From contig NC_057918.1 in NCBI RefSeq assembly GCF_018873765.1, forward strand, positions 67,684,871 to 67,748,870: a stretch of 64,000 nucleotides of DNA. The letters are read 5' to 3'. Shown one piece after another: positions 38,138 through 61,494 of the stretch. A program made the translations under genes and the position numbers. This DNA comes from Telopea speciosissima. Taxonomy: Eukaryota; Streptophyta; Magnoliopsida; Proteales; Proteaceae. The notes under the pieces were generated by a model. That model saw only the letters and a list, made by a program, of their open reading frames with translations, searched no databases and was not told the DNA's origin. Every line of letters starts with the position of its first letter. Position 1 is the first letter of the stretch.

Positions 38138-38497
38138 GAATTTTTTTCTCCCTCATGTCCGTTGCCCAGACACGATCGTGTTGTTCCCTTACATGGGGGT
38201 GCATAATGACAACTTAACCTCGTCGAATTTTTATCCTCTGTTGTCCACTGTCCGGACAGCAGAGTGTTGTCCCCTCACATGGGCGTGAAATGACGACTTA
38301 ACCATCCCTCGGGCAGGGTGATTAAGACGTCATTTTACGCCCATGTGAAGGGACAACATTCTACTGTAGAAGATAACGATTCGACCTCGTCTGAGCAGTG
38401 TGTTCGGGCAGGGGGTAGATTGTCATTTTGTGCCCCCATGTGCGGGGACAGCACAGTCTTGTCTGTGCAGTGAACAGGAGAGAGGATAACGTTTCAG
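38138..38497. mobile_element. Hairpin MITE (outer), interrupted by a second copy
   Basis: The outer foldback has a perfect 8-bp duplication AAGGGGAT (38130-38137 and 38498-38505). The left arm includes ttacatgggggtgcataatg and the right arm its near-complement near 38425-38450. Without the inserted copy and one of its target repeats it is about 193 bp. Non-coding. Confidence 0.8.
38225..38383. mobile_element. Hairpin MITE (inner), inserted in the centre of the outer copy
   Basis: 159 bp with a perfect 8-bp duplication ACCTCGTC (38217-38224 and 38384-38391). The arms are complementary over about 65 bp, including tcacatgggcgtgaaatgac and its partner. Same family as the outer element but with different outer arms. 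Confidence 0.82.
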
Positions 38498-38509
38498 AAG
38501 GGGATAACC

Positions 38510-38670
38510 CAAAAAATTATCGCCTCCAGTACTGGGGGCACTGCTATGCGCATCGTGCGGCGCAGCAGCGCCCATGTGTGCACAGTGGGCCCCACCATGC
38601 GCACATGGGCACTGCTGCACCGCATGATGCGCACAACAACGCCCCCCAGTATTGGGGGTGATAAAGATCC
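38510..38670. mobile_element. Hairpin MITE, high-GC arms
   Basis: 161 bp; the flanks ggataacc and ggatagcc match 7 of 8. Arms of about 70 bp are complementary, with alternating gcgcat/gtgcgc tracts. The loop is only a few bases. It lies 12 bp from the preceding element. Confidence 0.75.
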
Positions 38671-38739
38671 GGATAGCCCCAAGGTAGTTTGAAGTCATGA
38701 TCTCTTATTTTAATTTTCCTTTGTTTTTTCTTTGCGAAG

Positions 38740-38896
38740 CAGTTTTCTGTACGGGAGTGTGGCCTACGCCAGCACTTCCATGTGTCTATCTCTCTCCTCC
38801 TTAAAACAAGGGGGCCGAGGTGTTTTTTCACATGGGGAGGAGAGAGAGACTCATGGGAGTGCTGGCGTAGGCCACACTCCCGGACAGAGAACTTTT
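38740..38896. mobile_element. Hairpin MITE, GGAGTGTGGCC arms, copy 1
   Basis: The left arm (gggagtgtggcctacgccag...) pairs with the right arm (ctggcgtaggccacactccc) with a loop near 38800-38830. A sister copy lies at 45187-45335. I could not fix the target duplication. Confidence 0.7.
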
Positions 38897-40300
38897 TCTC
38901 TCTTTCTTTTTAAAAACCACAAACATACAATATGTATACACGTGTATATGCATATAATACACATATTATATGCATAAAATACAAATAGCTTGTTTTTTCA
39001 AACATTGAGGCCAAAAATGTCCAATACGTATTATATCAGCCGAACCGCTGGTACCGATGGGACCGATACCGATTTCCATACCATGAGTTTAAGCCTTGTT
39101 CCCAATGTCATGATGACTTAGATTCCAATTGAATGTTGTTGACACGGCATAACGGACCATAGTTTTGCACCAAAATATGGGAAAGATAAGCATGCACCAC
39201 CTTTGTACAAATTCTTTTATACTTTTTGTTAGAAAAACTGGTATAAAAAGGAAGATGACAGAAAGATGGCCTGAGTCGAACGAGGTCGTTCTGTCCTTAA
39301 GACAGTATTTGCACCCTCCTATATCTGTAAAGGGTTGCTACAAACCTTACTGATTGCAGAATCAGTAAACTCTTGAAGCTATCAGAGAAGTTTTGTTATA
39401 TCTGACTGAGAGAATTCGTGGCCCATTTATAGGCCCACAGGGCCTGTTCGGATGGGTCACACCCATTGGCTCATGTGGCTTGATCTGACAAGTCATGACT
39501 ATTGGGCTGGGCTTTCATGGCTGTACGTGTGGGCTGCAACCATTGGGCTCAACGTTGAACCAATGGTTGCACCCCCCCTTTGATTAGCCACCGTTGATCC
39601 CGAAAAGATTAAGGCAACATAGCGCATGTGCGAAGTGCAAAGTGCGCCATCAAAGCGCCACATTGCGCCTCACGCACGCGCACGCATATACGTACGCGCT
39701 CGAACGATCACCGTCCTCACTCGCAAGTGCACCGTACAACCCTTTCCAAACATAACATATGATAATAACACACAATCATATATAAGCCAAGGGAAACATT
39801 TCTCCGTAACCGATGTGGGACTAAATATCACATCTATTATTTGGAAAAATTCCAACACTTTTTAAATTTTGAACAACGTCTTCTTCCACCCATAGAGGAC
39901 GGTTCACCCACCATCTTAGGGTTCACAAACCCCTCCTAGGGTTTTTGTATGGTCCAAAATATCCTCTAGAAACCTATTCCTGCCATTTCACATCCATCGG
40001 TGAATGGGATCCCATTCACTGTAGGTGGAGGGAAACCTGGTTTTTTTTTTGTAAAGTCCTTTATACCCCTCTCACATGATAAATAGTGAAGACGTGGAGT
40101 TCATTCTAACACCCACTTTTATTCAGATCATGTAGGTTCATAAAGATGATACCATTTTCCAATCCTTCATTGGTGAACGTGCATATTCCTTCTTACAATG
40201 TCCTTGTAGAAGACTCACTCCTAAAAATATATACTTAAAAATCTTTTGGGAATGGAACCATTAATAAGGTGTAATGGCAACGTGGGACCCAATGGGTGTC
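38897..40300. other. Spacer upstream of the lipid-transfer-like gene
   Basis: No gene recognised. The 39120-39880 stretch has an LTR-like or promoter-like look, with a GC-rich run of cacgcacgcgcacgcat near 39671, but no confirmed ends. Confidence 0.35.
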
Positions 40301-40310
40301 CATATATACA
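40301..40310 (+). promoter_or_regulatory. TATA-like box of the lipid-transfer-like gene
   Basis: catatataca, about 104-113 bp upstream of the ATG. A GA repeat (about 40397-40413) lies directly before the start codon in the presumed 5' UTR. Confidence 0.5.
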
Positions 40311-40413
40311 CACAAAGGAGCCATGGCTGAAGAATAATCTCTACTGACTAAGAGAGGGTGGGAATTGGGAAAGAAGAAGAGGAAGCAAAGCGTTCTGAGA
40401 GAGAGAGAGAGAG

Positions 40414-41118
40414 ATGGCAATTTCTAACATTAGTTGGTTAGCCTTGGCATCCATATTCATGGCCGGAGTTCTGATCTCCGGCAAGAGTGTCTCGTCCCAG
40501 GGATGCGGACTTGATATTCCTGGTTTAGTATACACATGCTTGCCGATCATTCAAAGGCCTGTGGTGGAGAAGGTAACGAAGTCTCAATGGTGCTGTAATG
40601 TTGTGAAGAAGGTGGAAATCCCATGCGTCTGCAAGTATATCACCAAGAAATTAGAGGAGCAGTTCAGCATGGATAAAGCAGTATATGTTGCGGAGCAGTG
40701 CGGAGTGACTCTTCCCCTTGGAATGATATGTGGAAGTAAGATTCAATCCCTTTGTCTCTACCCAAATATTTTGTTACCAAAAAGATTTTTTGGTTGGATC
40801 CACCATGATTCTCTCTTGCTTCACATCTTTATTTGTTTCATATGGAAGATTGATGTGACAATTCTGATACTTAGATAACTAAAGATCGAATGGTGTAATT
40901 TGGCTACGTGTCAAATTTCAAATCAAAATTCGAGCATTTACCTTCTCATATATATCAAATGCATCCACTATCTAATTAGTTCTCCCTTAATTAGACAAAA
41001 TTTCTTCAATGATCATTTTGTCATGTGGTAAACTCCTTTGGGCTGAAACATTATATGTGATAAGAGACTTATATGCCAACTTGATCACCGAATTTCAGCC
41101 TTATACAACTTCACATGA
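40414..41118 (+). CDS. Secreted eight-cysteine lipid-transfer-like protein
   Basis: Small apoplastic proteins of this superfamily bind lipids in a helical fold held by four disulfides. A signal peptide (about residues 1-29) precedes a mature part with the full motif: C31, C42, C60-C61, C71-V-C73, C96 and C106, as in YTC, WCC, PCVC, EQC and MIC. Exon 1 ends at 40735 (GGAA|gtaag, phase 1). A plausible exon 2 is 41099-41118 (after tttcag), giving a protein of about 114 residues; another acceptor near 41132 would end almost at once. Reading through the donor gives a 154-residue product with an unlikely tail. The spacing resembles DIR1-like or anther-expressed members rather than classic nsLTP1. 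The start is supported by the signal peptide and the TATA-like box. Confidence 0.75.
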
Positions 41119-41173
41119 AGAAAAAAATATAGGTTAACCAGGGATTCCTTCATGGTTGTGAATCCTATTTTGT

Positions 41174-42197
41174 ATTTTTTTTGGTAATGAAAATTTCATT
41201 CAAATAAAAAGCATGAAATACACAAGGTTTGGGTAAGATGTATCCAAAACTAAGGAATGGGAAATGACCAATCTGTTGTACATGCAATTGACAGGGTCTC
41301 CTAGGCTAGGGTATGGGCACGCCTAACAGTAACCCTAGAGAAAAAACTGTAAACACAGCAACCAACACCACTCAACACATGATACATGTCCTTATGAGTA
41401 GGGATGGGCATGGGACCCAACAAGTTGACCCACAACCTGTCTGGTCCCCACTTTCCCCGATGCCAGCCTGGTAAACAGAACCCATTGTATTATGGCCAAT
41501 TGTCGGTTGCGGCGTTGTTAGAGAGCCAGTTGTGGGTGGTGGATTCTTTGAGCAAAACCAGCATGAGCCCAAACGCCTCCCAACTCCGGTGTCCGGTGTT
41601 GATCAGTGAAGGGGTCGATCACTAAGGTACCCTTGCTGCCAGCACCGATGACGCAAAAGCCACTACGAATGACGGTGAGGTTCTGGCTCCAGACTCGTGG
41701 AGCTTTCATCTGGTTCCAAGCGAGATGCACGCAGACAAGTTGGAATGATCGGAATACTGGGGAGGTGGAGGAGGAGGCATTGGTTTTGAGGTTGGGGCGG
41801 AGGATGACGTCGATTGAGATGCAGTTCTTAATACCGGCATCAGCAGCGGACAAACCCCCACCAACACAGATTCCGTTCCCCTTGCCTATGAAATCTCCAT
41901 CGCCTCTCACCAAGGAAAAATTGCTAAGGACCGACATTAGAGCCAAAAGCAAAACAGATCCGCAATGAGACGAGAAGAAGAAGGAGATCAAGTTCTAGTT
42001 AGAGTGAGATCTAAGGTGACGCAAGTTAAAGAAGGAGAAGAAAAGGAAAGAGAAGAGAAAGGGAAAGAAGGGAAAATAGGAAGAGGAAAAACACGCCACT
42101 GGAGGAGGAGGATTTCACGCCACTGTGGCTGAGAAAGGATCACGCCATAGGGACGGAAAAGCTACATCATGAACCAGAGGGCATGCGATAGTCGGTT
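41174..42197 (-). mobile_element. Retroposed unit with poly-A tail and 13-bp target duplication
   Basis: Flanked by a perfect 13-bp direct repeat AATCCTATTTTGT (41161-41173 and 42198-42210). The left end is a T run (41175-41182), so on the minus strand the unit ends in a poly-A tail. Length about 1.0 kb. The last bases (tttgaatgaaattttcattacc before the tail) resemble plant L1 3' ends, so it could be a 5'-truncated LINE or an mRNA copied by LINE machinery. It contains the reading frame described separately. Confidence 0.75.
41518..41991 (-). CDS. Hypothetical 157-residue secreted-like protein inside a retroposed unit
   Basis: I do not recognise this protein. It starts with a hydrophobic signal-like segment (residues about 1-30, LLLALMSVLSNFSLVRG), then a Gly-rich stretch (GKGNGICVGGGLSAADAG), six Cys in all and possible N-glycosylation sites (NAS, NLT). 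No transmembrane segment after the leader. A C/T-rich stretch of about 200 bp precedes it inside the unit, like a 5' UTR. It could be a retrocopy of a host mRNA, or chance coding in a LINE tail. No evidence of expression. Confidence 0.35.
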   Translation of the reverse strand: MISFFFSSHCGSVLLLALMSVLSNFSLVRGDGDFIGKGNGICVGGGLSAADAGIKNCISIDVILRPNLKTNASSSTSPVFRSFQLVCVHLAWNQMKAPRVWSQNLTVIRSGFCVIGAGSKGTLVIDPFTDQHRTPELGGVWAHAGFAQRIHHPQLAL

Positions 42198-42210
42198 AAT
42201 CCTATTTTGT

Positions 42211-43129
42211 TGATCATTGGCAACTAGAGATTGAAAAAAAATACATATATACCTTTTAAATGATTACCAAAAAACAATTATACCTTTTAAATATAATCTT
42301 TATTTTACTTTTTTGGCTCCTCATTGGAAATGAAATAAAGGGAAGGAAAGTAAAATTAAATCTAAAAAAGAAAAAAAAAATTGTAATCATTATCTAATAT
42401 TATTGTATCATTAACTCAAATTATCTCAAATTTGGTACTAATATTTTTCTTTATTGTGCATTCAAATCGTTTTCTGTTATGTTTCTCACATCATTATCTA
42501 GTCATGTATTAAATTATAGACGGGTCTAATTTGTTAGTATGTTATTATAGTGATTGCAAAATTGTTTAAAAAAATCAATTTTTTGCAAAGTTGTTTGAAA
42601 AAATCAATTTGTTGTGAAATTGTTTGAACAATAATGAAGTCAAAAAATTGAAAAAAAAAAGGCAATAATCTCATAGATAGTGGGTCAACGGTTGAGATGA
42701 AGCATCAAATTTAACATGTAACCTATCTAAGGAATTCCTTATTTATCCAACAATCAGAAGATCATCTTGTCCATGTGGTGAAAAAGTAGCGGCGGGTGTA
42801 TAGATATGATTCGTACCACATGCATGTAGGAACTTTTACGTATTTTTATTTTTTTTTTGGGGGGGGGGGTAAATATCCATCATTGAACACAAAGAAAGGA
42901 AAACTATGATAAAAACAAAAAATAGACATGGAATTATTATCATAATAAAAATAAGGGGCAGAGTAATACTTTTGCGCACTCCTATGTTTGGGCATAGGAG
43001 CCACACAATCTAGTAGCGTTTTTTTCCCCTCAAAATAAAGTAATGGATAATTAGTAATTTCATACAGGTTGACCATAGAGAAAACAGTGAAATGCTTTCA
43101 TTACCCCAAATTCCAAATAATATTAATAA
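42211..43129. other. AT-rich spacer
   Basis: No gene. A tandem-like phrase (aaattgttt.aaaaaatcaatttnttg) is repeated about three times near 42555-42630. A G homopolymer lies near 42859-42868. Confidence 0.4.
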
Positions 43130-44247
43130 GGGTAAATTACATGACCCCCCCTGAAAATCAAACGATACTCCATTCACCCCCTGTTTTTTTTTAAATACTC
43201 ACCCGTCCCCCTGTATTAGAGTCATATATAACAACTTCGTCCCTACCGTTAGTTTTATACGATTAAGTTATGAAGTCAGCAAGTTAAATATTTTTAAATC
43301 CCTAAAACTACCCTTGACCAGTGTTGAGTAACTTTTTTACCCTTTATCTTAAAATCTCAAAATCAATCCTCTTCTCACATGACCTGCAACATGTACGATT
43401 GGTCTTATTTATTTATTTTTAAATTAAAACAAGGAATCATAGAGGAAATATTCCCTCTCCTTCCCCAAATCGCTAAATCGAGGATGGAGAAAACCCATTT
43501 AGGGTTTTAACAACCACCACCGCCGTCTCTTGCAGCGATCGAACCAAAGGCCACCAACTCAAACACGGCAACGACCGTCAGGGTCCGACAGCCATAACCC
43601 CGGCATCAGATGTTGGTGAAACCCAAACAAACAAAAAAAGCCCGAAATCCCTTTTTCTCTGTTCGGTGAAGAAAGCCTAGGGTTCAAAGATCAAACTGCC
43701 GCCCCTTGCGGCAGTTGAATAAGAGGGTCGGGGGCCTGTGAAGATACTGTCGAACTACCATCCTGCTCCTGTGACCATGACCCACTCTCAGGTACGGGTA
43801 AAACTCAGCGGTGGCCGGTGGCCCCCAAAAAAAATTTATTGATTTTGCAGGTTTTGAGAGTTGATTCCAGCCATGAAAACGATTGGTGAACGGTCCCGGA
43901 GCTCTCGTGAAGCTCCATTAGCAGTCCAACCTCCGTGCGGTGACTGATTTGCCTCGGATGGGGGTTGCAGCTATGGTTTCAGTCATGGTTGTGGCGGTGG
44001 CAATAGGAAGAAGGAGAAGAAGAGCAGCATAAGCAGAGAGGGTATCTAAAGCTTTTTTTTCTACAAATGTTGGGTACCTCAATTGTCATTGTTTATCTTA
44101 TTTTAGTTGAGGTTAAAATTGTTTTTTCAATTTTTGGATTGTTTTAAGTTAACACTGTTACTCTGGAGGGAGTCGAGTGAGTATTTTCAAATAAGAGGGG
44201 TTGAGTTGAGTATTGTTTAAATTTTAGGGGTGTCATGTAATTTACCC
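43130..44247. mobile_element. Large Mutator-like element, family GGGTAAATTACA, possible gene-fragment carrier
   Basis: 1,118 bp with the same ends as the MITEs at 5308, 10210 and 62066 (gggtaaattacatgacccc and its complement). The flanks tattaataa and taataaaaa match 7 of 9. The left 200 bp follow the small copies, but the interior (about 43370-44150) is unrelated and G/C-richer, with accaccaccgccgtctcttg and other exon-like sequence. This layout fits a Pack-MULE. No conserved protein was recognised in it. Confidence 0.6.
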
Positions 44248-44390
44248 TAATAAAAATAATGTCATTTCGGAAGATGATAAAATGATTTTCAGGTCTATTA
44301 TGAGAAAAACAAAAATCAAATAAGAGCATCTTACAATTATAGAATTTCTTAACAAAGCAATAAGAATGTTGCCATCATACATCTCAAAGT

Positions 44391-44579
44391 AGGATCACGA
44401 TCCTCTGTTGTCGACTGACCGCGCGGCCATCGTGCAGCCTTGCACAGGCAGGGGCAAAATGATCACCTGTGCCCACCCGGGCAAGGTGCTCAGGCAGTGG
44501 GTAGGGTAGTCATTTCGCCCCTGCCTGTGCAAGGCTGCACGCCGGCTCCACGGATAGCGGCAGCAGAGGATCCAAATTG
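44391..44579. mobile_element. Hairpin MITE, GGATCCTCTG ends
   Basis: 189 bp with an 8-bp duplication CTCAAAGT (44383-44390 and 44580-44587; the next base also matches). Arms of about 70 bp: gcagccttgcacaggcaggg on the left pairs with its complement on the right. Core caaaatgatcacc. Confidence 0.82.
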
Positions 44580-44587
44580 CTCAAAGT

Positions 44588-45186
44588 AAGGGTATTTTAA
44601 TAATTCTATAGAGAACAACTAAAGCAAATATATAGTAGAACCATGGATCCATACAAGAACATGCATGTGAAGGACTTTTTTTTTTTTTTTTTCACTCATT
44701 ATTCTTTCTTTTTATAGGTTACACCATACCAAAGGCATGAAGCTGAGAGAACGGGAGGAACCAAGGCAGTCAGGTGTTTTTGAATTTCGATGTTTTAAGT
44801 GACCATTTCTGTTGCCATTTTAACTAGAATAATGCCATTTTGTGGCTGCGTGCAAAAAAAAAGTTATTTTGAAATTCTCTTTAGAAAAAAAAAGAAGGAT
44901 GTCTGGTTGTGTGCCGCCTGTACTTAAAGACCTAAGGGGTGAAATAACCGTCCGCCTGACAGCGATCCCCTCCCTTCTCCAAAATAGAGACGGTTCTTAT
45001 CTTATGCATCTAATCTTGACCTTATGATCAATATCCAAGCAACATCTTGGGTGGGACTGGCCTTTTAAATATGGGGACTGCAGGGTTGACACCATGTTGG
45101 AAGCCCAACTTCCAAACACAAATGTTGCTTTTATATATTGGTATAATGCAATTATTAACTAATAATATTATAGGAAGTAGTTTTTT
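44588..45186. other. Spacer between hairpin MITEs
   Basis: Nothing recognised apart from a T run near 44677-44692. Confidence 0.35.
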
Positions 45187-45335
45187 GTCCAAGAGTGTGG
45201 CCTATGCCAACACTCCCATGTGTCTATCTCTCTCCTCCTCAAAACAAAGGGGTAGAGATGTCATTTCATTTGGAGAGGAGAGAGATAGACTCAAGGGAGT
45301 GCTGGTGTAGGTCACACTCCCGGACAAAGTTATTT
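45187..45335. mobile_element. Hairpin MITE, GGAGTGTGGCC arms, copy 2
   Basis: gagtgtggcctatgccaaca pairs with gctggtgtaggtcacactcc across a loop near 45240-45275. Closely similar to the element at 38740-38896. Confidence 0.7.
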
Positions 45336-45379
45336 TTCCCTAATATTAATTGGTTTCCTCTTAGTTCCAAATCCTAATT

Positions 45380-45492
45380 TTTTTGGACTAGGATCCTCTG
45401 CAGTACCGGTGGGGCAGCATGTGTGCCACTTGGCCTCTGCTGTGCCGTCGGATGTGCACTGCCCCGCCGGTACTACAAATGATTTTAATTCT
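45380..45492. mobile_element. Short hairpin MITE, GGATCCTCTG end
   Basis: cagtaccggtggggcag pairs with ctgccccgccggtact. ctaatttttt occurs on both sides and may be the target duplication. The centre lacks the usual long core. Confidence 0.6.
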
Positions 45493-45534
45493 AATTTTTT
45501 ATAGGGAGGGCTGAAGAACATGCCACAAAGGATA

Positions 45535-47230
45535 TGATCTTAATTCTTTTATTTTTTGGTAGAAACAAAAGAAATAAACTTGATAATCCCAAGTGTACTG
45601 AGAGGGGGGTGAATCAATGTCTTCAAGAACTCTTCCAAACTCAATCCCGTAGTTATAACAATCACACACAAAGATTGTCCGGGGCAGTCCCGTAATTACC
45701 AATCACACATGCATGCCCACATCGCAACCACTGTGTGGTCAGGTCTACCAGACAATGCATCATTACAGCAAACACACTTCAAGAATATGCAGGAAAAATA
45801 ACAAACACACAGTACACCAAGTATACGTGGTTCAACCAAGCTGCCTACATCCATGGAGGAATACCCGTAAGAGTTTCATATTTTCTCAAACAATCAATTC
45901 GAATTCGACTACTACAATAGCCTAGCTGCTACAACACCTGGTTCTGACTCCACAACAACGAAATATAGGGCTACAACCCCAATCCAATCAAGCCCCAACT
46001 TGAATGGTATTACAATATGAATATACAAATTCAAGTACAAGTCCCTCACAATAACACGAACAAACTAGGATTCTTTTAACATGAATCAAACCTTAGATAT
46101 AAAATAGGACTTATGAAAACAAAAAGATTACTCTCCCTGAGTAATCTCATGACCAACCCACTGCTTGAAGCCTTCCTGGTGTCAAGCACGTTTTCCAATG
46201 TTCAAAGCAGCTTCATAGATCGATCAATTAGTGTATTCCGTGCATAGTACCTTCTTCTTTGTGTTTTCTGCCTCTAACAGTAGGTCCAATGGATAAATCT
46301 CAAAAAAACACAATATCAAAAAAAATTTCCATCCAATTTAGACTCTAGATGGCCAAGATACGGCCTTCCAAAGTTGGATGCTCTAAAATTGAAAATCAAT
46401 GGCAAATTCGTAAATAAAAAGATTTTTCATGACAAACCACATGAAACGAGGCAAATATTCTGTTTGCAGCCATCTTTTTTATGACTTCAACATGCTTTAC
46501 AAAAGCGTGTTTTTGCTTTTACTAAGAGAATATGCCACGGAATATGTTTTTTTTCTTTTATATTACAACCAACCATTTTCCTTGAAATGGAATCTTCTAC
46601 AAACTTGCTTACACAAGCGATACACTTGATTAAGGCCCCTGCTGATACACCTGAAGATGCTTTTCCATGTATGTGCAGTGTATGGAAATAAATGCACCTA
46701 CCCAATGAATGAGCTCACATTGGAATCAAGAGTGCACATTATCGTAGATCTGGAATCAAGTGCGATTAAGCACATCCGACAGTCAAAAAGACTCAGTAGT
46801 TTTAACAAAACAAAGGAGAACGTATGCTTACAGTATAGCACTTAAAAATAAGCCAAAATTTTTGGCTAAGTATATAAGCTTTTGCCTATTCCAGATTTGC
46901 TCTATTTTCGCGCGTCGACACGAAAATATCTGTAACTTTCTCGTTTGACACTGAAATGATGTGAAACCTGTTGCCTTGGAACCGTGACATGACGAACCTT
47001 ATTTCTCGTGAAGAGAGATTCACCAAAAACTGCAATTATACATTCCAAAAATGGCCTTAAAATCTCTGCTATTGCATGAACCTGTGAAATCATAACTTTT
47101 AATAGTATGGAACCTTCACCTGCTGCTTTGCCCCTTTGCCAAACACTATATAAGGACTTAATATGCTGTTAAATGGTGTTCTTCAAGTGTGGGTACCCCT
47201 GTAACGCTATCAAATGACCAAAATACCCTT
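45535..47230. mobile_element. Possible copia (SIRE/Maximus-like) LTR remnant
   Basis: gagaggggggtgaatcaatg near 45600 and tacgtggttcaaccaagctg near 45824 are phrases I associate with LTRs of SIRE/Maximus-type elements, which would put the LTR on the minus strand. Ends and coding parts were not identified. Fossil; low confidence. Confidence 0.3.
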
Positions 47231-47424
47231 ATTACTGTGTAGGTGGCTCTTTGACCATTTCTGCTCTTCCAACTCACCAAATACTACTGCCGCATCACCA
47301 ATATGGCTAATAAGGTTGCCAACAATGACAACACCACTCCAGCAAACCTCAGTTGACCAATAAAACTGACTACAAAGATTTATACTTTGTAGTGAATGCA
47401 GGTTGAGTTGGGTCCATCGCTAGA

Positions 47425-47550
47425 AACATGGCTCCTGTCTAGCCGTGGCGAGAGTTGGACGGTCAGGCCCCACTAAACGACAATAAAAATAGGGGTGGGA
47501 TGGTCATTTCACAGGTGGGTCCCACGGCTGGACAGGATCCTTTTCCCCAC
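47425..47550. mobile_element. Hairpin MITE, weak arms
   Basis: ctcctgtctagccgtgg pairs with ccacggctggacaggatcc; the centre has gggatggtcatttcac, the family core in complement. Boundaries are approximate. Confidence 0.5.
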
Positions 47551-47588
47551 TGCTAGGCCCTAACACAGCCTCAAGCCTATATATTTTA

Positions 47589-47724
47589 AGGGGCGCTGTT
47601 CTCTGTGCCGCAGTGCAACCTACACCCAGGCACATGGGGGTGGACACAATGACCACCCTGCCCCCCAACACAAGCTACTCATGTGCTGGGCGTAGACTGC
47701 TTGTGGCACAGAGAACATTCTCCC
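47589..47724. mobile_element. Hairpin MITE, GTTCTCTGTGCC arms
   Basis: 136 bp; the flanks atatttta and atattttt match 7 of 8. gttctctgtgccgcagtgca pairs with the complement near 47690-47718. Core acacaatgaccaccctg. Confidence 0.72.
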
Positions 47725-47864
47725 ATATTTTTTGGTGGGCCTTGAGTAAGGGAGGATTAGCTTTTGTATGGATTGGTAATATTTTTCTCTCAGGTGTGCA
47801 ACCCAGCCTTGACTGCTTTCTCAAGAGAAAGGCAAAAATCTCCTTATTAGACTACAATCGTTAG

Positions 47865-48152
47865 ACGCGTTGGATTCAGCCGGATCATTACTCCAATCGA
47901 AAGTGGGAGTCCCCATTAGACTAATATCGTTAGACACTTATTCCAATCGAAAGTGGGACAACTAATATCGTTAGATCCCTTCTTTTTCTCTCCCCTGCGA
48001 AGCTTACATGTTCTAAATTTCTCTGTGAAGGTAAAGTAACAAGACTCGGGAAGATCTCTTCTACTCTTGCGAAAACCTAACCCTAATATTTAGATTTGAT
48101 TGCAACCTCAAATTTGCTTCTGAAGTAGTTTCAGTTCCTATTTACAGAAATC
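47865..48152 (+). promoter_or_regulatory. Promoter/5' UTR region of ESS2 with direct repeats
   Basis: ccaatcgaaagtggga occurs twice (near 47893 and 47943), each close to a 'atcgttaga' phrase that occurs three times (near 47867, 47926 and 47968). No clear TATA box, as is common for housekeeping genes. The repeats may be regulatory or just a local duplication. Confidence 0.4.
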
Positions 48153-51979: not shown

Positions 51980-51982
51980 TAA

Positions 51983-53307: not shown

Positions 53308-53315
53308 GTTGTTCT

Positions 53316-55218
53316 CAAGGTTCTAAAACTCGGGTTTCGACCAGCCAGAAATGGAGTTCGTCTCGATTTTGACCATATCTCGGTGGAAACCTGGGATTTT
53401 TCCCATTGATGGGAAGACCAAGTTTTCGACCCCAAAATAAGGTTTTTTAGGTTTGATTTTTTGCAGGTTGCTCATTTTTCACATTTTAAACACAATCCAT
53501 GAATTACATTCACCAAAAACTCACTGAGAATGGTACTTGTGGTTATTGACCCAAGTTTACTAATGTACGTGCTGATACGATACAAACACTAAAGTGGTAT
53601 TATAAAATTTATAATTAGTTCACATAATTATAAAGTACTTGAACCCTGAATAATACATTGAATCCAAATAAAACATTAAGATGTCTTTCTTCAATTCCAT
53701 GCGGAGTTTCTTAGTGGGTCTAATCCATGAGCAACGAACCACTGAAGATTGCGAAACCGTTCCTCCTAGGGGTGCAAGTTTGGCCATGTTGGCCCGAACC
53801 CGCCCTGAGCCCGAACAGGGTTTGGGCTGAGATATTTGGCCCTAAGGGCGGGTCAGGGCTAGAAATTTCTGGCCCTGAGTTAGGGTCGGGTCGGGTTAGG
53901 GTTGAGGCCTCGAGCTAAGCTTGGCCCGGCCCGGCCCGGCCCGACCCTGATTTAAGTTATACTGTAAAATATATATTGACAAAATTTATACATTATAAAC
54001 TTTAAATTTCACCCACATTTCTTTATATAATATATTATATATGAAGACAATAAGTGTTATAATATAATTTATTATATTGTTATTTTATGTAAGATTAATA
54101 ATGTTCTTCCCAGCCCATTCCAGCTCATGCATTTCTTTTCCCCCTCCCCATGATCAGGGCCAATCAGGGTCGGCCCGACCCGACCCTGAGGGCGGGTCAG
54201 GGTTGGATTTTTCTGGCCCTGAGTCAGGGTCGGGTCGGGCCTGGGCCCAGCTAAGGGGACTTAGGGTTGGGCTAGGGTTCTATAAAGCCCGGCCCAACCC
54301 GACCCTGTTGCAACCCTAGTTCCTCGGACTTCCTCCAAATGCACAACATATGTATCCTAGCGAACTGACACATGGAATTAACCAAAATGGAGAGAGCTGG
54401 TTCAACTAGAAAGTCCAAATTTTGAAAAAGTAACAATCAACTAATGGTATGTTGACCCAACCTAAAAAATAGAAGCTTAAAGAACAGGGAAAAAAATCTC
54501 CTATTTATCGAGAAAACATTTGTGGAGGAAAACAAGAACAACCATACATACAAAGAATGGTTATTCATAGCAAATCCCGCACCAAACCATCAAATGTTTT
54601 TTCTCCCTTGCTTCCCTCACATCCGAACTCGAGCAATACCTATAAATGAACTTAAAATAACTCTAACCCAGTTCCTAAAATCTTTTTAAAACCCTAGAAA
54701 TCCAAGAAGCTATCGAACAGGAGCACTAGAAAGCTCTCTGGAATCTCCGCAGGTCAAAATGAAGACCCAACAAAAAAAACTACTCAAACTAAACAAAATT
54801 AAAGATTTGCAGGAAAAAAAATCAAAATCTGAATTACCAACTCACCTGAATCTTCTGGTTCCAGTTATGATCAAACAGGTCGATGATTAGAACCAGCTCT
54901 TGCTAGCCAACCACCATTCCCGTGAATCACGACAACCTCTTCACCCATTTACATACATAAAATAATGCATACATGGGGAAAAGAATCAATCAAAACTCAT
55001 CTACATTGCTTTAGCTCTGAAAGGGGACTTTTTAAATCTAGAAAAAGTAAAGATTTTTAATTTGCTGGGACCTGGCCTCGACCATTTCCCTCTGGTTTTG
55101 ACTGAAACCGGGATGAAACGAGGGATTTTTAAAAGTTCCATGTTAACTCATTCGGAACTTGTCGAAACCGAGTTGTCTTGGCGGTTTCGACAGGTTTCGA
55201 CCGAGTTTTGATTCCATG
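53316..55218. mobile_element. hAT-like element of the CTCGGCGAGATCTCGG superfamily, copy D (diverged)
   Basis: 1,903 bp with a perfect 8-bp duplication GTTGTTCT (53308-53315 and 55219-55226). The left end CAAGGTTCTAAAACTCGG is shared with copies A-C. The subterminal motif here is of the ggtttcgacc/ggtttcgaca type instead of gagatctcg, marking a subfamily. A second hAT MITE (53767-54318) is nested inside. No transposase. Confidence 0.78.
53767..54318. mobile_element. hAT-type MITE, ends TAGGG(G/T)TGCAA, copy 1
   Basis: 552 bp; ends taggggtgcaag and its partner gttgcaaccct; the flanks gttcctcc and gttcctcg match 7 of 8. Interior arms are rich in ggcccggcccg and gggtcgggt with an AT-rich centre. 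Short frames inside are compositional. Sister copy, in opposite orientation, at 63062. Confidence 0.82.
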
Positions 55219-55280
55219 GTTGTTCTTACACAAAAATGGAATAAATAAATAAATTTTAACCTAAAATGTATATATTAAAT

Positions 55281-55466
55281 AAGGAAAGAGAATGCTACCT
55301 AGGTACATACGGTGTGCTGCCCCTACACCCAGACATGGGCGTGCAAAATGACCCTCGTCCCGGGGAAATTTCGCCTTTCCATGGGGGTGCGGCGGTCATT
55401 TCTCGCACCCTTGTGTCTAGGCACAGGGGCAGCGCACCACACATGCCTAGGTAGCGTTCTTTCTCA
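55281..55466. mobile_element. Hairpin MITE, CTACCTAGG arms
   Basis: 186 bp with a perfect 8-bp duplication TATTAAAT (55273-55280 and 55467-55474). gctacctaggtacatacggt pairs with the complement near 55430-55456. Core gcaaaatgaccctc. Confidence 0.82.
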
Positions 55467-55511
55467 TATTAAATAATTTAATGCATGTCATTTCTTACAA
55501 CAAAACTAGAA

Positions 55512-55676
55512 AAAATTTGGAAAAAGATCTCTACTTGGTGGTGTTTTCTACACCCTCTCATAGGCCACTGTGAGATGACGCCTCTGCTTCTTGGGTAGAT
55601 ACCCAGGCGTGCTCACTCATTGGCCCAGACGCTTATGCAGAGACCATGTGATCAAGTAGAGATCTCTTGCCCAAAT
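55512..55676. mobile_element. Hairpin MITE, AGATCTCTACTTG arms
   Basis: aaaaagatctctacttggtg pairs with tgatcaagtagagatctctt near 55650-55669. The centre has cactgtgagatgacgcctc, a diverged family core. Boundaries approximate. Confidence 0.6.
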
Positions 55677-56820
55677 TAACTTTTACCCGAATATATAATA
55701 TATTTAATGCAAATTATGATTCTTCAATACCCGGCCCGCTTTGAGCCCAATGGAGCCATGCCTAGGTTGAGCTTTGGGAACCCCGGGCTGGGCTTGGGTC
55801 TTCAAAACCCCAGCCCAGCACAGCCCAGTTGCGCCACTAATTAGAAGACAAGGTGTAAAATTGTTTATGATTTTAATTCTCCGCAATAGAAGTTGGAACT
55901 GTTAGAAATTCTTTGGGTTTTGTAAAAATCTAAACCAGTCTCCATACAGTGAATTAGAACACGATTGAATAAAAGAACGGGAAAAATAATGTGTACCTTG
56001 CACCCACGTATGTTGGAGAAGAGCGATATAGAATAATCCATAATCCTTTGTGTCGTCATCCTTCGCGAAGGAAACCTTAGTCAGGATCTTCTCCAGTCTC
56101 TTTTTCTCACACACACCTTTCACATTCTTGGTGGGAAGAACAAAGAATGAGATCAAGTGACTGTAGGGACCCTAATCATGTATTTGTAATAAAAACAAAC
56201 CCTAATCCAATATACATGAAAAAGATTAGTATACTTCCATTAACCTTAAGATAGTCCTAAACTAGGTTTTATGTCTATGGATCCGCACCAATAGATTAAG
56301 ATATAATTAATTAAGTTCAATATATTATGAAAATAACTTACAGTAATATACCCCTATCAGATAAGATCATGTTGTGGGATGTCACAAGAACATGTGATCT
56401 TTCCTCAAAACAGGCCTACAGAATTTTGACTGAGGAGAATGACCAAAACCTGTGGTCTTTGTCATTGTAAAAAATATGGAAATTACCACCGAGATCAAAG
56501 TTTATATACTTTCTCTAGATAGGTATTCAACTATTCTTGATGTCTTACCAAGTCAATCACTTTCACATGTTTGGAAAGCATCCATACTAAGGCATTGATA
56601 TTAGGGGCAATAAATGAAAATGACCCAAGTTTTCAAACTCCTAAGTACGGTGATTCAGTTAATAGAGAATCTCATTATTAATAGGTTTTGATACTAGGAT
56701 GAGATTCCTGAAATAGTCAAAAAGGCATTTAGGTCATCAACTCATCATTCATAGTTGGGTTCTTAGAGACGATGTAAGCTTTAGCAATGGAATCTTATTT
56801 CAGATTATTGTTGAGGTAGA
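55677..56820. other. Spacer, partly LTR-like
   Basis: ggcccg-rich, hAT-MITE-like debris at about 55725-55840, then AT-rich sequence. The 55870-56360 stretch has an LTR-like look but no confirmed ends. No gene. Confidence 0.3.
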
Positions 56821-56834
56821 AACAGTCTCTCCGC

Positions 56835-57170
56835 AAAGCCGGATCTTTGTCTCTTCTAATTTTTTGCCCTGCCTAGTTCCCCCGTTGCCTGTAATAAAGG
56901 GGCACAATGACCATCCTACCTTTGCCTGAACACGTTACTTGATTAGGGCCCACCTCCCTTATTACAAGCACTGGGGAACTGGCCAGGCAAAGAACTAGAG
57001 GAGATAATTTCTCGGATCATTATCACCTCCAATTCCCTCTAATCCATCACATAGGAGTTGAAATTATCACCTATCCACTGCCTGAACACACTGCCTAAGG
57101 TGGAGTAGAATGGTCATTTCAACTATTATGTGAGAGATTGGAGGAAATTACAGGGTGTCAAAATTGCAAG
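56835..57170. mobile_element. Two adjacent hairpin MITEs
   Basis: First, about 56840-57010: ctaattttttgccctgcctag pairs approximately with ctggccaggcaaagaactag. Second, about 57020-57170: cctccaattccctctaatcc pairs with the gattggagg region near 57130. Cores are cacaatgaccatcct and gaatggtcatttcaac. They are almost back to back; target duplications were not fixed. Confidence 0.6.
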
Positions 57171-57184
57171 AGACAAAAATTTTA

Positions 57185-57313
57185 ATTTCCCCCACGAAAC
57201 CTCTCCACAAAACGATTGTAAGGCTGCATTTATTATGACTATGACCCTCCCTAGACCCCTACTTGTATTGGCCGGAGCCTATTACATTGGTTAGCCGCCC
57301 ACCCCCAAAAAAA
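57185..57313 (+). mobile_element. Au-type SINE, 3' part
   Basis: cctctccacaaaacgattgt, then aaggctgca and tatgaccctccctagacccc match the well-known 3' half of plant Au SINEs. The segment ends cgcccaccccc followed by an A run (57307-57313). The Pol III promoter half is not visible. A similar phrase (agtctctccgcaaagc, near 56823) hints that a hairpin MITE landed in or next to a SINE. Confidence 0.55.
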
Positions 57314-59619
57314 TAGTGATTTCTTGGGGGTGGAATGCTTTTAATCTTATTTTATCTCTCAAACATTTGCTTTGGGCATGATATATTCGAAAAAAATTTC
57401 TTGTAAACCGCTGCCCGTAATGAAATAATCTCCTTCCCCTACCTTCGTGGGTCCGTAAATAGCCAAAAACCCCTTTTAATTGAGTGGGGATTCCATTTCG
57501 GCACTTGCGATTATGGGCAGCAGGAAAATTTTGTCCATGATATTCGAAGTGTATGGCCAGGTCCTGGGATCCAATCTAGCCTTTACTTTTTTTTATCTAA
57601 TCCTCCAATTATATTCTTTTCTCAAAAAAAAAGAAAAATCAAAGCTTGTATTATATATGAGAAAAATATTATTGTGTGGGCCTCCGAGCATGAATGCACG
57701 TGTTGGCCAACAAAAGTACATGCACAAGTGTCACACTGGGAAGGATTTCCTTCTTTTCATGGGGGCAACATAGTACTTTCGTGTGCTTCTGCGTCATTTT
57801 ATAATCAATTCTCATACATGGTGGATAAATCCAACTATAGGGGAAATGTCCTCTTCACTGGGGGCATAGGATGTGCCTAGACACATGGAACGGGGGGGTG
57901 AAATGATCGGCTCGCCCCCCTGAATGATCGAAATATGGTGCTCGTCTCACCTCATGTTCTTACACATTGCCTGCCCCCAACTATATTACCAGCTTTCAAA
58001 AACATTGGTTTAAGGCTTCATGTACGTCATGATAACTGCCACGTGGTAGGTCAAATGGGTGTCCACATTTATGGGCATGTAGGATCAAGATCCTATGCTA
58101 ACACACAGAGTTTCAAGTGATCTAATGGAACTAAAAAAAAACGGAACTATGCTGACATGACATGCTAGAGTCTTAAAATTAATATAAAAAAAATTGATAG
58201 TATACAACTTATTCCACTTCATTGACTGGAGTTAGAGATCGGAACTATGAAGGAGAGGACTGAGTATCATCTTTAGGCTAAAGACACTTGCTTCACACAA
58301 CCGAAAGTACATGAAGTAGAGTTAGCGAACAGATCGTAACGGTTGAACACTTGAAATGAAAGCAACCACTCATTGTAGGGGAGCGTTTAAATGAATTAAA
58401 AATGTGAATAATTGGAGGAGCTGAGTTGTGTTATCGGTCACTCTTCTTAAGATTGTAATCATCCACTATAGTGCAATATGGGTTTTTGCAAATCAACCTC
58501 CAAGATGAAATAGACTCTTAGATACAGTTATGTTGTGCTCATAGATGCCCTCTATTTATAAATGATAGATACACATTGGAAACACTTATTGAAGGGGAGT
58601 TAGGGGACTCAAAAGATGCGTCACTCGAAGAGAGAAGACAAATAAAAAAAAACACTTAGCCGTATTGACGTCCAATGCAATCTGGACGATGAACAATGAA
58701 GAATCACCAACGTTAATGATACTCATCGTATGTTGGTAAAACTCCACTAAATATCAAACATATTGTAAAGCATGTCACTAAGTTCTTTACAAATTCTGAA
58801 TTGGAACATATTGGTTTTACCAATGTCAGTAAATATAAATACAGATATAAGTCCGACCATCAGCAAAAAGAAACTACATACACACCAAGGCCTCGCCTTG
58901 CCACGGCTCAACACAAACATATGTGTGAAAATAAACCCTGAAATCCCAAGGAAGAGAGAATAGTGAATCTTTTTTCTTTCATGAAAACATATCAATGTGG
59001 TTTCCATTTTACTTTATGAACCTCACTCTAATCCCTTTCATAACCAATGTGTGACTAAGGATTTTTCACTCTTTTACTTTAGTACCATTAAGTTCAAAAC
59101 TTGTGGGAAACAAAAACTAGGAAAACCAAAAAAATGGTATTTTGAAACTTTGATATTTTCCTTTTATAAATGCTTTTAAACAACCATAAAGTTTTAAAAA
59201 TCTATTTGAAGCCAAGCTTTTAAAATAGGATTTTTTTCTCCGTACAAATATGGTTGATTACATTGAAGCTGTCATTATACCAATTCTTTGAAGAAAAAAT
59301 AGGGGACAATCTTTTTGTTAAATAGAGACAAAAATGGTAGTATAAAAAAAAAAACAAAAAACAATAATGTTAGTTTTCATAATTCTCTTTGTTTATATTG
59401 TCCATGTCAGATCGATTGTGATAGCTTAATAACCATGCATGATTATATATAGAATATCTATTTAAAATTATGATTAAAATCAAGTTGATAGTTGTAAAAT
59501 ATAAATGAAAAAGATGTCTATACATAGTTGTAGAATATCATTTGACCCTTATGTATAGGCATCTTCTTAAAATATAAATCTTGATCATTATCTGGGATTT
59601 TCTTTTACTAATCGTCGCT
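57314..59619. other. Spacer
   Basis: No gene recognised. A half-copy of the hairpin-MITE core (ggggggtgaaatgatcggctc) lies near 57892. The rest is AT-rich with unremarkable short frames. Confidence 0.35.
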
Positions 59620-60245
59620 TAAATTGAGTTTCTTGTTCTAGTTTGTTAGACAGAATAAGTATGAAACTTAGAACTTGGAAATCAAAATATTTGAGCTCAA
59701 CAGGGAAACTAACCCTAACTCAATCTTCTCTCTCATCAATGCCCCAATATTATATGTCATGTTTTTTACTCCTAATTTATGTTCGTAGTGACCTAGATCG
59801 TGCTTGTCCCCATTTCTTTTGGTCCAATGGTGATCAATCACTAGTTCTTACGATAAACTGGAATCTTATCTGTCAGTTAAATAAATCTGGAGGTCTGAAC
59901 TTTAAAATGTCGAGTTACATGAACTCTACGTACTCTCCTTGCAAAGAAAGCATAGGAATTCATTCAACCATCGTTTTCCTTATAGAGTAAAATTATGAAA
60001 GGGCCTTACCTAGTGCACAAGGCTCCTGCGTTTAGCAGGGTCTGGGAAGATCAAATTATGAAAATTATATATTTTTCTAATTCTTCTTTCATAAATGACA
60101 GGTGTCCAAAATCAGCTTCTTGGGGATATAAGTCGGTTTTCAAGTCAAGTGAGATTGTTTTAAAAGGATTACTGTTCAGAGTAGGTCATGGTCATTCAAT
60201 TAACCCATGGATTGAACATGTCCTACTACTGTTGCAGATTTAATT
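59620..60245 (+). mobile_element. L1-type LINE fragment, reverse-transcriptase C-terminal region
   Basis: The plus strand encodes the LINE pattern after the RT palm: LRTWKSKYLSSTGKLTLTQS, MPQYYMSCF, HFFWSNGDQ and GGLNFK, then in the next frame FRVGHGHSINPWIEH, the usual 'VGdGxxIxxWxdpW' zone. A break with a stop lies near 59990. 5' and 3' truncated. Confidence 0.75.
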
Positions 60246-60509
60246 CTTATACTTGGAATATGGGTTTACCCTGGTGGCCTGGTTGTCTCAAGATCACTGG
60301 AGACAAAATCGGTGTCTCGAGCAAGGCTTCTAAGATCTTCGAGGATTGAACCAAAGTTGGTTTTGGTCACTTTCTTCACAATGAAGGCCGATGTTGAAAA
60401 GATGAAAGCCTACAGGTGCAGCAGAAAGAACCATGGGAGCTGAGAGTCAGGAGTCAAAATGATCAAAGAAGCCAAAACAAGAATGCAGAATGGTTTTTTT
60501 TTTTAATAT
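60246..60509. other. Spacer
   Basis: Nothing recognised between the LINE fragment and the first Tourist-like MITE. Confidence 0.3.
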
Positions 60510-60642
60510 TCCAGAACGCACGAGGTTCTCAGGATCATTCTAAAATTATAGAATGAGAATGTATACCAAATCATGTTCTTGACGATCTAGAATGCATTCT
60601 AGTCCCAGAACTCATTCTGAGAATGCATACGAAACACAACCT
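60510..60642. mobile_element. Tourist-like MITE remnant
   Basis: gaatgcattctag and gagaatgcatacgaaacacaa resemble the two elements at 60829 and 60970. Ends are approximate. Confidence 0.45.
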
Positions 60643-60828
60643 TAGTCTTCTAATCTTTCCACTAAGTTTAGCCCAGAATATAGAACTATGCGCCTCGTTA
60701 AGACAAATTTGCTAGAAAAACAAATGTCTAAAAAAAGTCTAGATCTATGCAAGACCTTGTTTTTTTAAGCTTTTCATGGACAACAGAAAGCCCAAAATAT
60801 GAGAAGTTGATGTCCTCTCAAATATTAA

Positions 60829-60966
60829 GGCTATGTTTGGAATGCATTCTCGGAAATAGTTTTTTGATTCTAGAATGTATTCTAAAGCAAGAAAATAAAG
60901 AAATCAAGTTTTCAGATTGCATCCTAAAACCAAAATTTATTCCAATAATGCATATCAAACACAATC
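60829..60966. mobile_element. Tourist-like MITE, GG(C)TATGTTTGG ends, unit 1
   Basis: 138 bp; ggctatgtttggaatgcatt and its partner aatgcatatcaaacacaatc; TAA on both sides (60826-60828 and 60967-60969). Confidence 0.7.
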
Positions 60967-60969
60967 TAA

Positions 60970-61104
60970 GGCAATGTTTGGTATGCATTCCTGGAATGTG
61001 TGCTAAGTTGGTTTCGTTTTCTCAGATAATAAAACTAGTTTTTATCGTCCAAGAGTGTGAAAGCAACCTAGAATGCATTCCAAGAATGCATACCAAATAC
61101 AACT
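60970..61104. mobile_element. Tourist-like MITE, unit 2, abutting unit 1
   Basis: 135 bp; ggcaatgtttggtatgcatt and its partner aatgcataccaaatacaact; TAA on both sides (60967-60969, shared with unit 1, and 61105-61107). Confidence 0.7.
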
Positions 61105-61303
61105 TAAATGTTCAATTGATTTAATCAGCTGAAATGGTATATCTAACAAACATGGCAAGTTCTTTAAAGGTCCAGCTAAATGGAGGATTAGAGAGTAAGA
61201 TATTGAAAAATTCATTCAATGGAGCAATTAGGGTAATTTTAAGTCAAAGTAATGCATAACAAGTTGCAATGACCAATCCAGCCATATTGACCAATCCAAC
61301 ACT

Positions 61304-61494
61304 CAATTCAGATCGTCTATGGCGCAGTTGCCCGTAGCGGCCTGTGCGGTGTAGACTGGGTCAGGTGCGCAATGACCGTCTTACCCCCACTCGGGCAAGG
61401 CATTTGGGCAGGGGTAAGGCGGTCTTTGCAAATGCGGCTCAGTCTGCGCCACTCAGGCCGCTACGGGCAGTGCACCGTAGAGGATCTGGATCCT
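61304..61494. mobile_element. Hairpin MITE, TTGCCCGTAGCGGCC arms
   Basis: 191 bp with a perfect 8-bp duplication CCAACACT (61296-61303 and 61495-61502). Arms of about 80 bp: gttgcccgtagcggcctg pairs with caggccgctacgggcag. Core gcgcaatgaccgtctta. Confidence 0.85.

Follow-up and report, generated by a model that had tools for sequence, protein, structure and literature searches.

How do the two arms of a hairpin transposon come to match? The question is raised by a 64,000 bp stretch of the Telopea speciosissima genome (contig NC_057918.1, positions 67,684,871–67,748,870; hereafter the window), in which a cluster of hairpin elements has arms that remain paired within most copies and mostly differ from copy to copy. 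All figures given below come from this one window and 14 elements, and the samples are small.

Identification of the hairpin elements

Fourteen hairpin elements of 108–192 bp were found between 38138 and 61493 of the window, one of which was nested inside the loop of another; each is referred to here by its first position, and all are listed without a strand. An earlier note on this DNA had reported at least ten foldback elements of about 110–195 bp between 38.1 kb and 61.5 kb, and the count was in agreement with this, the outer ends being as the note gave them. A palindrome scan with a cut-off of 19 listed 10 loci, representing 11 of the 14 elements, with scores of 21.0–46.2, whereas a single Markov-generated control sequence peaked at 15.4; the three elements missing from the list were 45384, 47424 and 55519. 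Predicted folding of eight of the 14 hairpins (arms only) gave z-scores of −2.9 to −14.7. As expected of MITEs, the 14 copies are short (108–192 bp) and non-coding, with inverted repeats and target duplications; a duplication at the tips was absent in three of them (55519, 56841 and 57014).

No element matched Rfam at the gathering score, and no transposase was found among the 20 of the 28 window ORFs that were scanned. When all 14 elements were compared with the window by BLASTn, only two weak matches appeared outside the set, between 45172 and 61033–61059 (E 0.029) and between 55283 and 57872–57922 (E 0.009). Beyond the window, one exact pattern had no match in a collection of genome contigs and a second had none in a collection of viral contigs, which is unsurprising since neither collection is intended to cover plants. 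The first 38 kb does contain hairpins of other families, for example at 33195–33312.

Tips, core and loop

The elements have a loose tip motif in common (tips GGAAnnnnATCCTCT), and at least four of them also have a common loop. The loop-proximal core, which the earlier note had described in most copies, was above noise in 11 of the 14. It was present in both arms of 38138–38496 (192 bp without its insert), of 38225–38382, which lies within the loop of the former, of 44392–44579, which also has the shared loop and a perfect arm tract of 25 nt adjoining the core, and of 55283–55467 and 61304–61493. The core was found in the left arm of 47590–47724 (recognised by self-alignment, core profile and fold), of the degenerate hairpin 55519–55671 and of 56841–57013, and in the right arm of 45172–45340, of the partial hairpin 47424–47547 and of 57014–57166, which directly adjoins 56841. 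Of the other three, 38511–38670 was recognised by self-alignment and fold and has the tip motif without a core match, 45384–45491 is a short hairpin with the tip motif and no core, and 38734–38900, with arm type GGGAGTGTGGCCTACGCCAGCACT and 45172 as a member of its subfamily, has a degenerate core that at 4.3 bits was within noise.

A core profile gave 16 matches of at least 9.0 bits, all between 38.1 kb and 61.5 kb, the profile having been trained on these same arms, without the 10 of 28 arms that scored under the threshold. Its best match in the first 38 kb reached 7.6 bits, which is at noise level (7.8 bits in a 5x shuffled control); the note, too, had seen no member of the cluster there. 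The core might also be a repeat of the tip (a tandem TIR). The terminal profile did peak over the core, with the observed value reached in 3/500 column permutations, but the best match lay in a register other than that expected from the common ATCCT, and the idea is no more than a lead. These core-versus-tip tests used 16 of the 28 arms, with both arms of 38511, 45384, 38734 and 45172 and one arm each of 47590, 56841, 47424 and 55519 left out.

Alignment of the loops revealed changes of orientation. The loop of 57014 aligned to that of 44392 with z 8.9 when inverted and 2.8 in the same direction, with the tips GGATC and CAATT keeping the orientation that they have in 44392. The loop of 61304 aligned to that of 44392 in the same direction (z 7.8 vs 0.2), and here it was the tips that were exchanged. 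Inversion of the loop relative to the tips is predicted by template switching; such spacer inversion was seen in 44392 versus 57014 and versus 61304, a comparison of three elements with 8-nt tips. The loop of 56841 also has the reverse orientation to that of 44392.

Target duplications and superfamily assignment

Target duplications were analysed in 13 of the 14 elements; 45384, the motif of which lay outside the search range, was excluded, and has TAATTTTTT on both sides, which is of low complexity and was obtained with fitted ends. When the ends were fixed at 8 nt beyond the tip motif and at most one mismatch was allowed, duplications of 9 bp were found in 5/13 elements, of 8 bp in 0/13 and of 10 bp in 1/13. 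When the ends could shift by up to 2 nt, under the same mismatch limit, these figures became 9/13, 9/13 and 4/13 respectively (chance about 1% or less). The 8-nt offset was judged by eye from 38225, 44392 and 61304 and then applied to the remaining elements. Independent fixed-end checks of 9 bp came from 38511 (GGATAACCC/GGATAGCCC, 8/9), the left copy of which overlaps the right duplication of 38138, from 38734 (TTTTTCTTT/TCTTTCTTT, 8/9, low complexity) and from 47590 (ATATTTTAA/ATATTTTTT, 7/9, or 8/9 with play).

Perfect matches of at least 9 bp were present at 38138 (GAAGGGGAT at 38129–38137 and 38497–38505, 9/9 if the right end is shifted by 1 nt), 44392 (CTCAAAGTA, 9 bp), 55283 (ATTAAATAA, part of a longer match with both ends shifted, so that its exact ends are uncertain) and 61304 (TCCAACACT, 9 bp); as the first, second and fourth of these illustrate, the duplicated sequences are diverse. 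A shift of 1 nt at the right end was also needed for 45172 (TAATATTAT/TAATATTAA, 8/9) and 47424 (CATCGCTAG/CACTGCTAG, 7/9). The duplication of 38225 (AACCTCGTC/GACCTCGTC) matched at 8/9 positions. At 55519 a perfect 10-bp repeat, ATTTAATGCA, lies 25–30 nt beyond the tips.

The duplications had previously been counted as 8 bp long, which would imply hAT-type MITEs. Matches of 8 bp are indeed present at several sites, the perfect matches of 38225 and 45172 span 8 bp only, and with 2 nt of play a length of 8 bp fitted as many elements as 9 bp. At motif-set ends, the figures (0/13 vs 5/13) disfavour a hAT assignment, and each of the four perfect matches that reach at least 9 bp would require an 8-bp duplication to have been extended by chance. 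We consider hAT membership improbable. A duplication length of 9 bp depends on setting the ends by the common tip motif, and 9-bp duplications at such ends point to non-autonomous Mutator-like (MULE) foldback MITEs. The elements are thus most likely old, non-autonomous foldback MITEs of the MULE type, with a transposase assumed to be encoded elsewhere, an assignment made from sequence features. Excerpts of PMC3903597 accept duplications of 8–11 bp for MULEs and give the TIRs of TIR-MULEs as 100–500 bp; the arms found here, at approximately 60–95 nt, are shorter, with outer-arm matches covering 52–90% of the shorter arm.

Arm sequences within and between copies

Outside the tip and core, the match between the two arms of a copy had a median z of 7.2 (14 copies), and in 12 of the 14 none of 200 shuffles was as good as the match with the own partner. 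Between copies the median mean-z was 0.58 (91 pairs). The outer arm as first defined still included GGGYGTG beside AAATGAC, which the earlier note had counted as core; trimming a further 10 nt beside the core removed it and gave medians of 5.6 within and 0.39 between copies. The own-partner match was weak in 47424 (z 1.8 untrimmed, 2.9 trimmed) and 55519 (1.8 and 0.6). Residual similarity between the arms of different copies (best z >3) was seen in 14/91 pairs compared to 3/91 with reversed arms, and in 8/91 compared to 1/91 after trimming; as this exceeds the reversed control, some arms represent ordinary subfamilies. Three groups, 38734 with 45172, 38138 with 38225 and 38511 with 45384, appeared in both comparisons.

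The claim that arms differ between copies and pair within them therefore stands for 12 of the 14 elements and needs qualification for the rest of the pattern, since 38734 and 45172 have common arms, 38138 and 38225 have arms that are common only in part, and weaker similarity links other copies. Likewise, the note had held that its idea would fall if the arms proved to be ordinary diverged subfamilies with no excess of within-copy identity: some are such subfamilies, but the excess is present (z 7.2 vs 0.58). Mismatches between paired arms comprised 61 of the G-U type, 49 of the A-C type and 54 transversions, with no clear wobble bias.

Differences shared by both arms of a copy were counted in the arm columns of 12 of the 91 possible pairs, chosen mostly for signs of similarity. 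In 10 of these 12 the concerted differences exceeded the two other 2:2 patterns (p <0.02, uncorrected), with counts such as 15 v 2, 18 v 0, 16 v 5 and 19 v 2. For 44392 and 38225, the arms of which are similar at z 3.8 (3.0 after trimming), the count was 15 v 2; for 55283 and 38225, in a visibly poor alignment, it was 15 v 3, and for 38511 and 45384 it was 5 v 1. Non-homologous arms give a concerted pattern automatically and only 8/91 trimmed pairs are similar, so these counts alone cannot separate copying from replacement. Perfect within-copy tracts were not longer than expected over the 14 elements (Fisher p 0.09 for whole arms, 0.20 for outer arms), with nominal p <0.05 in the whole or outer arm of 44392 (p 0.003) and 61304, and values of 0.041 and 0.050 for 38734. 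The arm-to-arm copying proposed in the note would account for the concerted differences, but no direct conversion tracts emerged over the set. Copying at every transposition appears disfavoured because 38734 and 45172, the sole close pair of one subfamily, have inherited arm-specific differences (3 v 1 concerted), although these counts are small.

Origin of the paired arms

Template switching between the arms of an inverted repeat is an established mutation process. Arm-to-arm copying is, as far as the sequences can be compared, the best explanation for arms that are paired and yet different. The fuller account that we favour, at slightly less than an even chance, is that these are old MITE subfamilies of the MULE type and that template switching re-palindromised their source elements now and then. 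The transposase, a MULE enzyme with its gene elsewhere, would move the elements via their tips. In the source elements, replication would slip from one arm onto the other, by template switching or quasi-palindrome correction, so that whatever had changed in one arm would be written into its partner, at times with a flip of the loop. Each renewed source would yield its own subfamily, the copies of which would then drift one arm at a time. Excerpts of PMC8604942 describe template switching as homogenising inverted-repeat arms and inverting spacers, and parts of PMC8794818 propose it as a process by which hairpin stems arise and are repaired.

As the tips, core and loop are common to the elements, their arms would be expected either to be related by descent or to have been exchanged for new sequence on both sides. 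A different history, possible though on the unlikely side, has each arm type born once as a palindrome and then diverging as an independent ordinary subfamily, with no continuing arm-to-arm copying and with the tips and core conserved through the needs of the transposase or by chance survival. The three recurrent arm groups, the absence of homogenisation in the close pair 38734/45172 and the non-significant tract test all fit such a history; the pairs that retain some outer-arm similarity, which differ mostly in concert (15 v 2, 15 v 3 and 5 v 1), do not. Replacement on both sides would follow if host or filler DNA had inserted into a single arm, in the stretch from tip to core, and a duplicate of it had then formed in the opposite arm. 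This we regard as quite unlikely: despite common tips and loops, 77/91 pairs (83/91 after trimming) have no arm similarity above z 3, and sections of PMC4168063 (Galileo) and PMC3310237 (sequences built into extended MULE TIRs) offer precedents, but the similarity that remains in 14/91 pairs (8/91 trimmed) speaks against it, as does the scarcity of BLASTn matches elsewhere in the window. The effect of trimming, together with the 8-bp figures obtained with play, shifted weight from template switching in old MULE-type subfamilies towards arm capture and hAT.

Selection might also keep the arms paired through compensatory mutations, acting on the hairpin either in RNA form (a precursor of miRNA or siRNA) or in DNA form, as a structure that serves transposition. 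Very stable folds are predicted (z to −14.7 among the eight folded), whereas G-U-compatible mismatches are not clearly in excess (61 v 49), Rfam gave no match at the gathering score, and the right arm of 38225 alone lacks a long stretch, a one-arm gap that persists; such selection seems highly improbable. A bolder form of the re-palindromisation account, which we hold to be rather unlikely, is a MITE superfamily in which recurrent events of this kind generate diversity, with whole arms rewritten at once and loops flipped while tips and core persist, so that new subfamilies could escape siRNA silencing with transposase recognition kept.

If arms do turn over in concert across the whole genome, plants would offer a natural experiment on template switching, and hairpin transposons would have a simple way of forming new subfamilies. 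In that case arm-to-arm divergence would be unusable for dating such elements, and similarity-based repeat-finding would split one superfamily into many apparent singletons.

Comparison with known systems

One search phrasing for transposons whose arms are homogenised or evolve in concert through template switching returned no paper with five of its six terms, from which absence from print is not claimed, and six sequence strings of the elements had no match in the literature searched. The statement that no named family behaves in this way was nevertheless too strong, as MuTAnT and Tm1 are foldback MITEs of the MULE type that have 9-bp duplications, sequence inserted in one repeat of Galileo reportedly ends up in both of them, and template switching is established. 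FARE elements, the foldback MULEs of Arabidopsis, are longer than those found here. They are named in a passage of PMC4486113 and resemble the present elements in being foldbacks of the MULE class with long palindromic repeats.

Excerpts of the same paper (PMC4486113) describe MuTAnT, from Medicago truncatula, as modular, hairpin-like foldback MITEs of a plant, mostly 200–300 bp in length, with 9-nt duplications, G-rich tips and a frequent location near genes; their mean TIR is 47 bp. MuTAnT targets TA microsatellites, whereas the targets here are not (TA)n (e.g. GAAGGGGAT, CTCAAAGTA and TCCAACACT), and the element described there has almost identical TIRs of 144 bp, whereas the arms here vary from copy to copy. 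Tm1, a Mutator/Foldback family of Meloidogyne, likewise has foldback repeats, 9-bp duplications and MITE-like members according to parts of PMC3169594, along with a Mutator-type transposase of the kind proposed here; it differs in being from an animal and in its composite repeats, largely of 13–15-bp units. The Drosophila element Galileo, in sections of PMC4168063, is similar in that its ends are best conserved, its repeats are variable and insertions into one repeat become part of both. It belongs to the P superfamily, with repeats at least hundreds of bp long and duplications of 7–8 bp (consensus GTATTAC in D. willistoni), unlike the diverse duplications of the present elements.

The template switching described in excerpts of PMC8604942 and PMC8794818 shows the combination of arm homogenisation and spacer inversion that is proposed here, although those papers concern yeast coding DNA and RNA genes; word searches found no 'transpos' in PMC8604942 and no 'transposable' in PMC8794818. 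Taken with these systems, the Telopea cluster resembles a good example of a known transposon class combined with a known copying error rather than a wholly new phenomenon.

Hairpin elements of the window

Fourteen hairpin elements of 108–192 bp, spanning 38138–61493 of the window, were defined by a palindrome scan, arm self-alignments and an alignment of their tips (the shared outer ends of the arms); each is designated here by its start coordinate. All copy-to-copy comparisons were drawn from the 64-kb window alone. The palindrome scan listed 10 loci, representing 11 of the 14 elements, with scores of 21.0–46.2 against a top score of 15.4 in one Markov-generated sequence. Folding of the arms only gave z values of −2.9 to −14.7 for the eight elements folded. 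A profile of the loop-proximal, AAATGAC-containing core, trained on 18 of the 28 arms, produced 16 matches of at least 9.0 bits, every one within 11 of the 14 elements; the matched arms had trained the profile, so only its negative is independent. The best match in the first 38 kb scored 7.6 bits, close to the 5-fold shuffled control (7.8 bits), which upheld the statement of the earlier note that the family was not seen there. This region does contain other hairpins; one at 33195–33312 is near-perfect, with 54-nt arms (96%), lacks the core and has arms resembling those of none of the other elements.

One element (38225–38382) is nested inside the loop of another (38138–38496), and a third (38511–38670) borders this pair, where the duplication on its left overlaps the one on the right of 38138. 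The elements at 56841–57013 and 57014–57166 abut directly, neither with a duplication, and are perhaps a composite or the product of a deletion between neighbours. A degenerate match (72.5%, E 0.009) to the loop-side part of 55283 at 57872–57922 is perhaps a broken further relative.

The window is plant-like DNA; among its ORFs are one for an Es2 nuclear protein (48.1–49.7 kb) and one for a protein of the lipid-transfer type (40.4 kb). Pieces of LRR receptor kinase genes at 2025–11194 form two similar blocks (2–6 kb and 7–11 kb), possibly a tandem duplication. A second repeat family was present at 5345–5660, 10245–10565, 62060–62450 and 43130–44247; three copies have inverted ends TCAAATCACC..GGTGATTTGA, and those at 62.1–62.4 kb and 43.1–44.2 kb extend to GGGTAAATTACA/TGTAATTTACCC tips. 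A GGCCCGACCC-rich repeat occurs twice in opposite orientation (53767–54318 and approximately 63060–63620); the 53767–54318 copy looks hAT-like: its tips are TAGGGGTGCAA, and inspection by eye shows a duplication matching at 7 of 8 positions (GTTCCTCC/GTTCCTCG). The region 60540–61110 contains several inverted repeats composed of GGAATGCATTC-like words; 27 nt within it (61033–61059) weakly match the tip and arm start of 45172 (E 0.029).

Arm similarity within and between copies

Arms were compared, with 200 shuffles, once the tip (16 nt) and all sequence from AAATGAC towards the loop had been cut away. Within copies the median z was 7.2 and no shuffle was as good in 12 of the 14 copies, the match being weak in 47424 and 55519; between copies (91 pairs) the median mean-z was 0.58. 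Trimming a further 10 nt beside the core gave 5.6 within and 0.39 between copies, with 12 of the 14 again unmatched by shuffles. The claim that arms vary between copies and match themselves within a copy is sound, with the correction that partial arm subfamilies exist: the best z exceeded 3 in 14 of 91 pairs, against 3 of 91 with one arm reversed, and similarity persisted in 8 of 91 after further trimming (1 for the reversed control). Elements 38734 and 45172 form one subfamily (83.6% over 165 bp), and the arms of 38138/38225 and of 38511/45384 are related.

Resemblance in tips and loops extends to more copies than resemblance in arms. Element 57014 shares loop stretches of 24–26 nt (85–88%) with 44392 and 38138 and a 20-nt tip (90%) with 38511, all with E within 0.007–0.027. 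The family is a mosaic in which tips, core and loop are alike and the arms turn over.

Tips and target duplications

The tip alignment gave the loose consensus GGAAnnnnATCCTCT. With ends placed 8 nt outside the ATCCTCT motif and flanks of 13 elements scored with at most one mismatch, a duplication fitted at 9 bp in 5/13, at 8 bp in 0/13 and at 10 bp in 1/13; allowing up to 2 nt of play at the ends, the counts were 9/13, 9/13 and 4/13. As 8 and 9 bp are equal with play, the preference for 9 bp depends on the shared tips. The 14th element, 45384, is flanked on both sides by TAATTTTTT when its ends are fitted. No duplication was found at the tips of 55519, 56841 and 57014; 55519 has a perfect 10-bp repeat 25–30 nt beyond its tips. 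The duplications reported previously are more likely 9 bp long than the 8 bp first given.

Duplications of 9 bp are reported for MULEs and MULE foldback MITEs in PMC4486113 and PMC3169594, and on this shared length we call the elements putative MULE-type MITEs. Scanning of 20 of the 28 window ORFs of at least 110 aa revealed no transposase, so the assignment depends on duplications and architecture. The core resembles the tip (observed value reached by 3 of 500 permutations) and may represent a second, internal terminus of the kind seen in tandem-TIR MULEs, but its register is not convincing.

Concerted arm differences

For 12 pairs chosen from the 91, 2:2 sites among the four arms of two copies were sorted into their three kinds. 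Independent evolution of the arms predicts that sites separating both arms of one copy from both arms of the other are at most as frequent as crossed sites. The concerted kind was in excess in 10 of the 12 (uncorrected p < 0.02 against one third), with counts such as 15 v 2, 18 v 0, 16 v 5 and 19 v 2. In the sense that the two arms of a copy have come to differ jointly from those of another, concerted change is well supported. Where arms are no longer homologous this pattern arises from the palindrome alone, and because few of the 12 pairs keep clear arm homology, change by stepwise copying is weakly supported. Clear homology was kept by 38511/45384 (5 v 1); it was marginal in 44392/38225 (15 v 2; z 3.0 after trimming), and 38138/38225 gave 2 v 0. 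Within the 38734/45172 subfamily the concerted kind was not in excess (1 v 3), small counts suggesting that same-subfamily copies retain source mismatches and that transposition itself proceeds without arm re-copying.

Taken over all copies, perfect arm tracts did not exceed the expected length (whole arms, Fisher p 0.09; outer arms, 0.20); among the 14 tested, 44392 has a 25-nt perfect run (p 0.003) and nominal values were 0.041 for 38734 and 0.047 for the outer arm of 61304. New arms may instead have been captured from other sequence: PMC3310237 mentions sequence built into extended TIRs of MULEs, and PMC4168063 describes insertions in one repeat of Galileo copies that come to form part of both. 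Arm mismatches had no clear G-U-type bias (61 v 49), so that selection acting on an RNA is not indicated. For arm-to-arm copying, proposed in the earlier note, the joint difference of arms between subfamilies stands and copying at each transposition is disfavoured by 38734/45172; copying as such is a candidate explanation, and the interpretation was half right. The observation as a whole is sound once the duplication length and the partial subfamilies are corrected.

Loop inversion and comparison with known systems

Elements 44392 and 57014 have identical tip placement (GGATC left, CAATT right), and their loops match better inverted (z 8.9 v 2.8). Between 44392 and 61304 the loop orientation is equal (z 7.8 v 0.2) and the tips are exchanged; the inverted loop match of 57014 and 61304 (z 3.9) agrees. 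One inversion of the central part with respect to the tips accounts for all three. The cluster is of interest because it combines, in a compact and natural setting, arm turnover and loop inversion in a plant MITE. Named relatives exist. Template switching is proposed in PMC8794818 to make and mend hairpin stems, and is reported in PMC8604942 to produce the combination of homogenised arms and inverted spacers.
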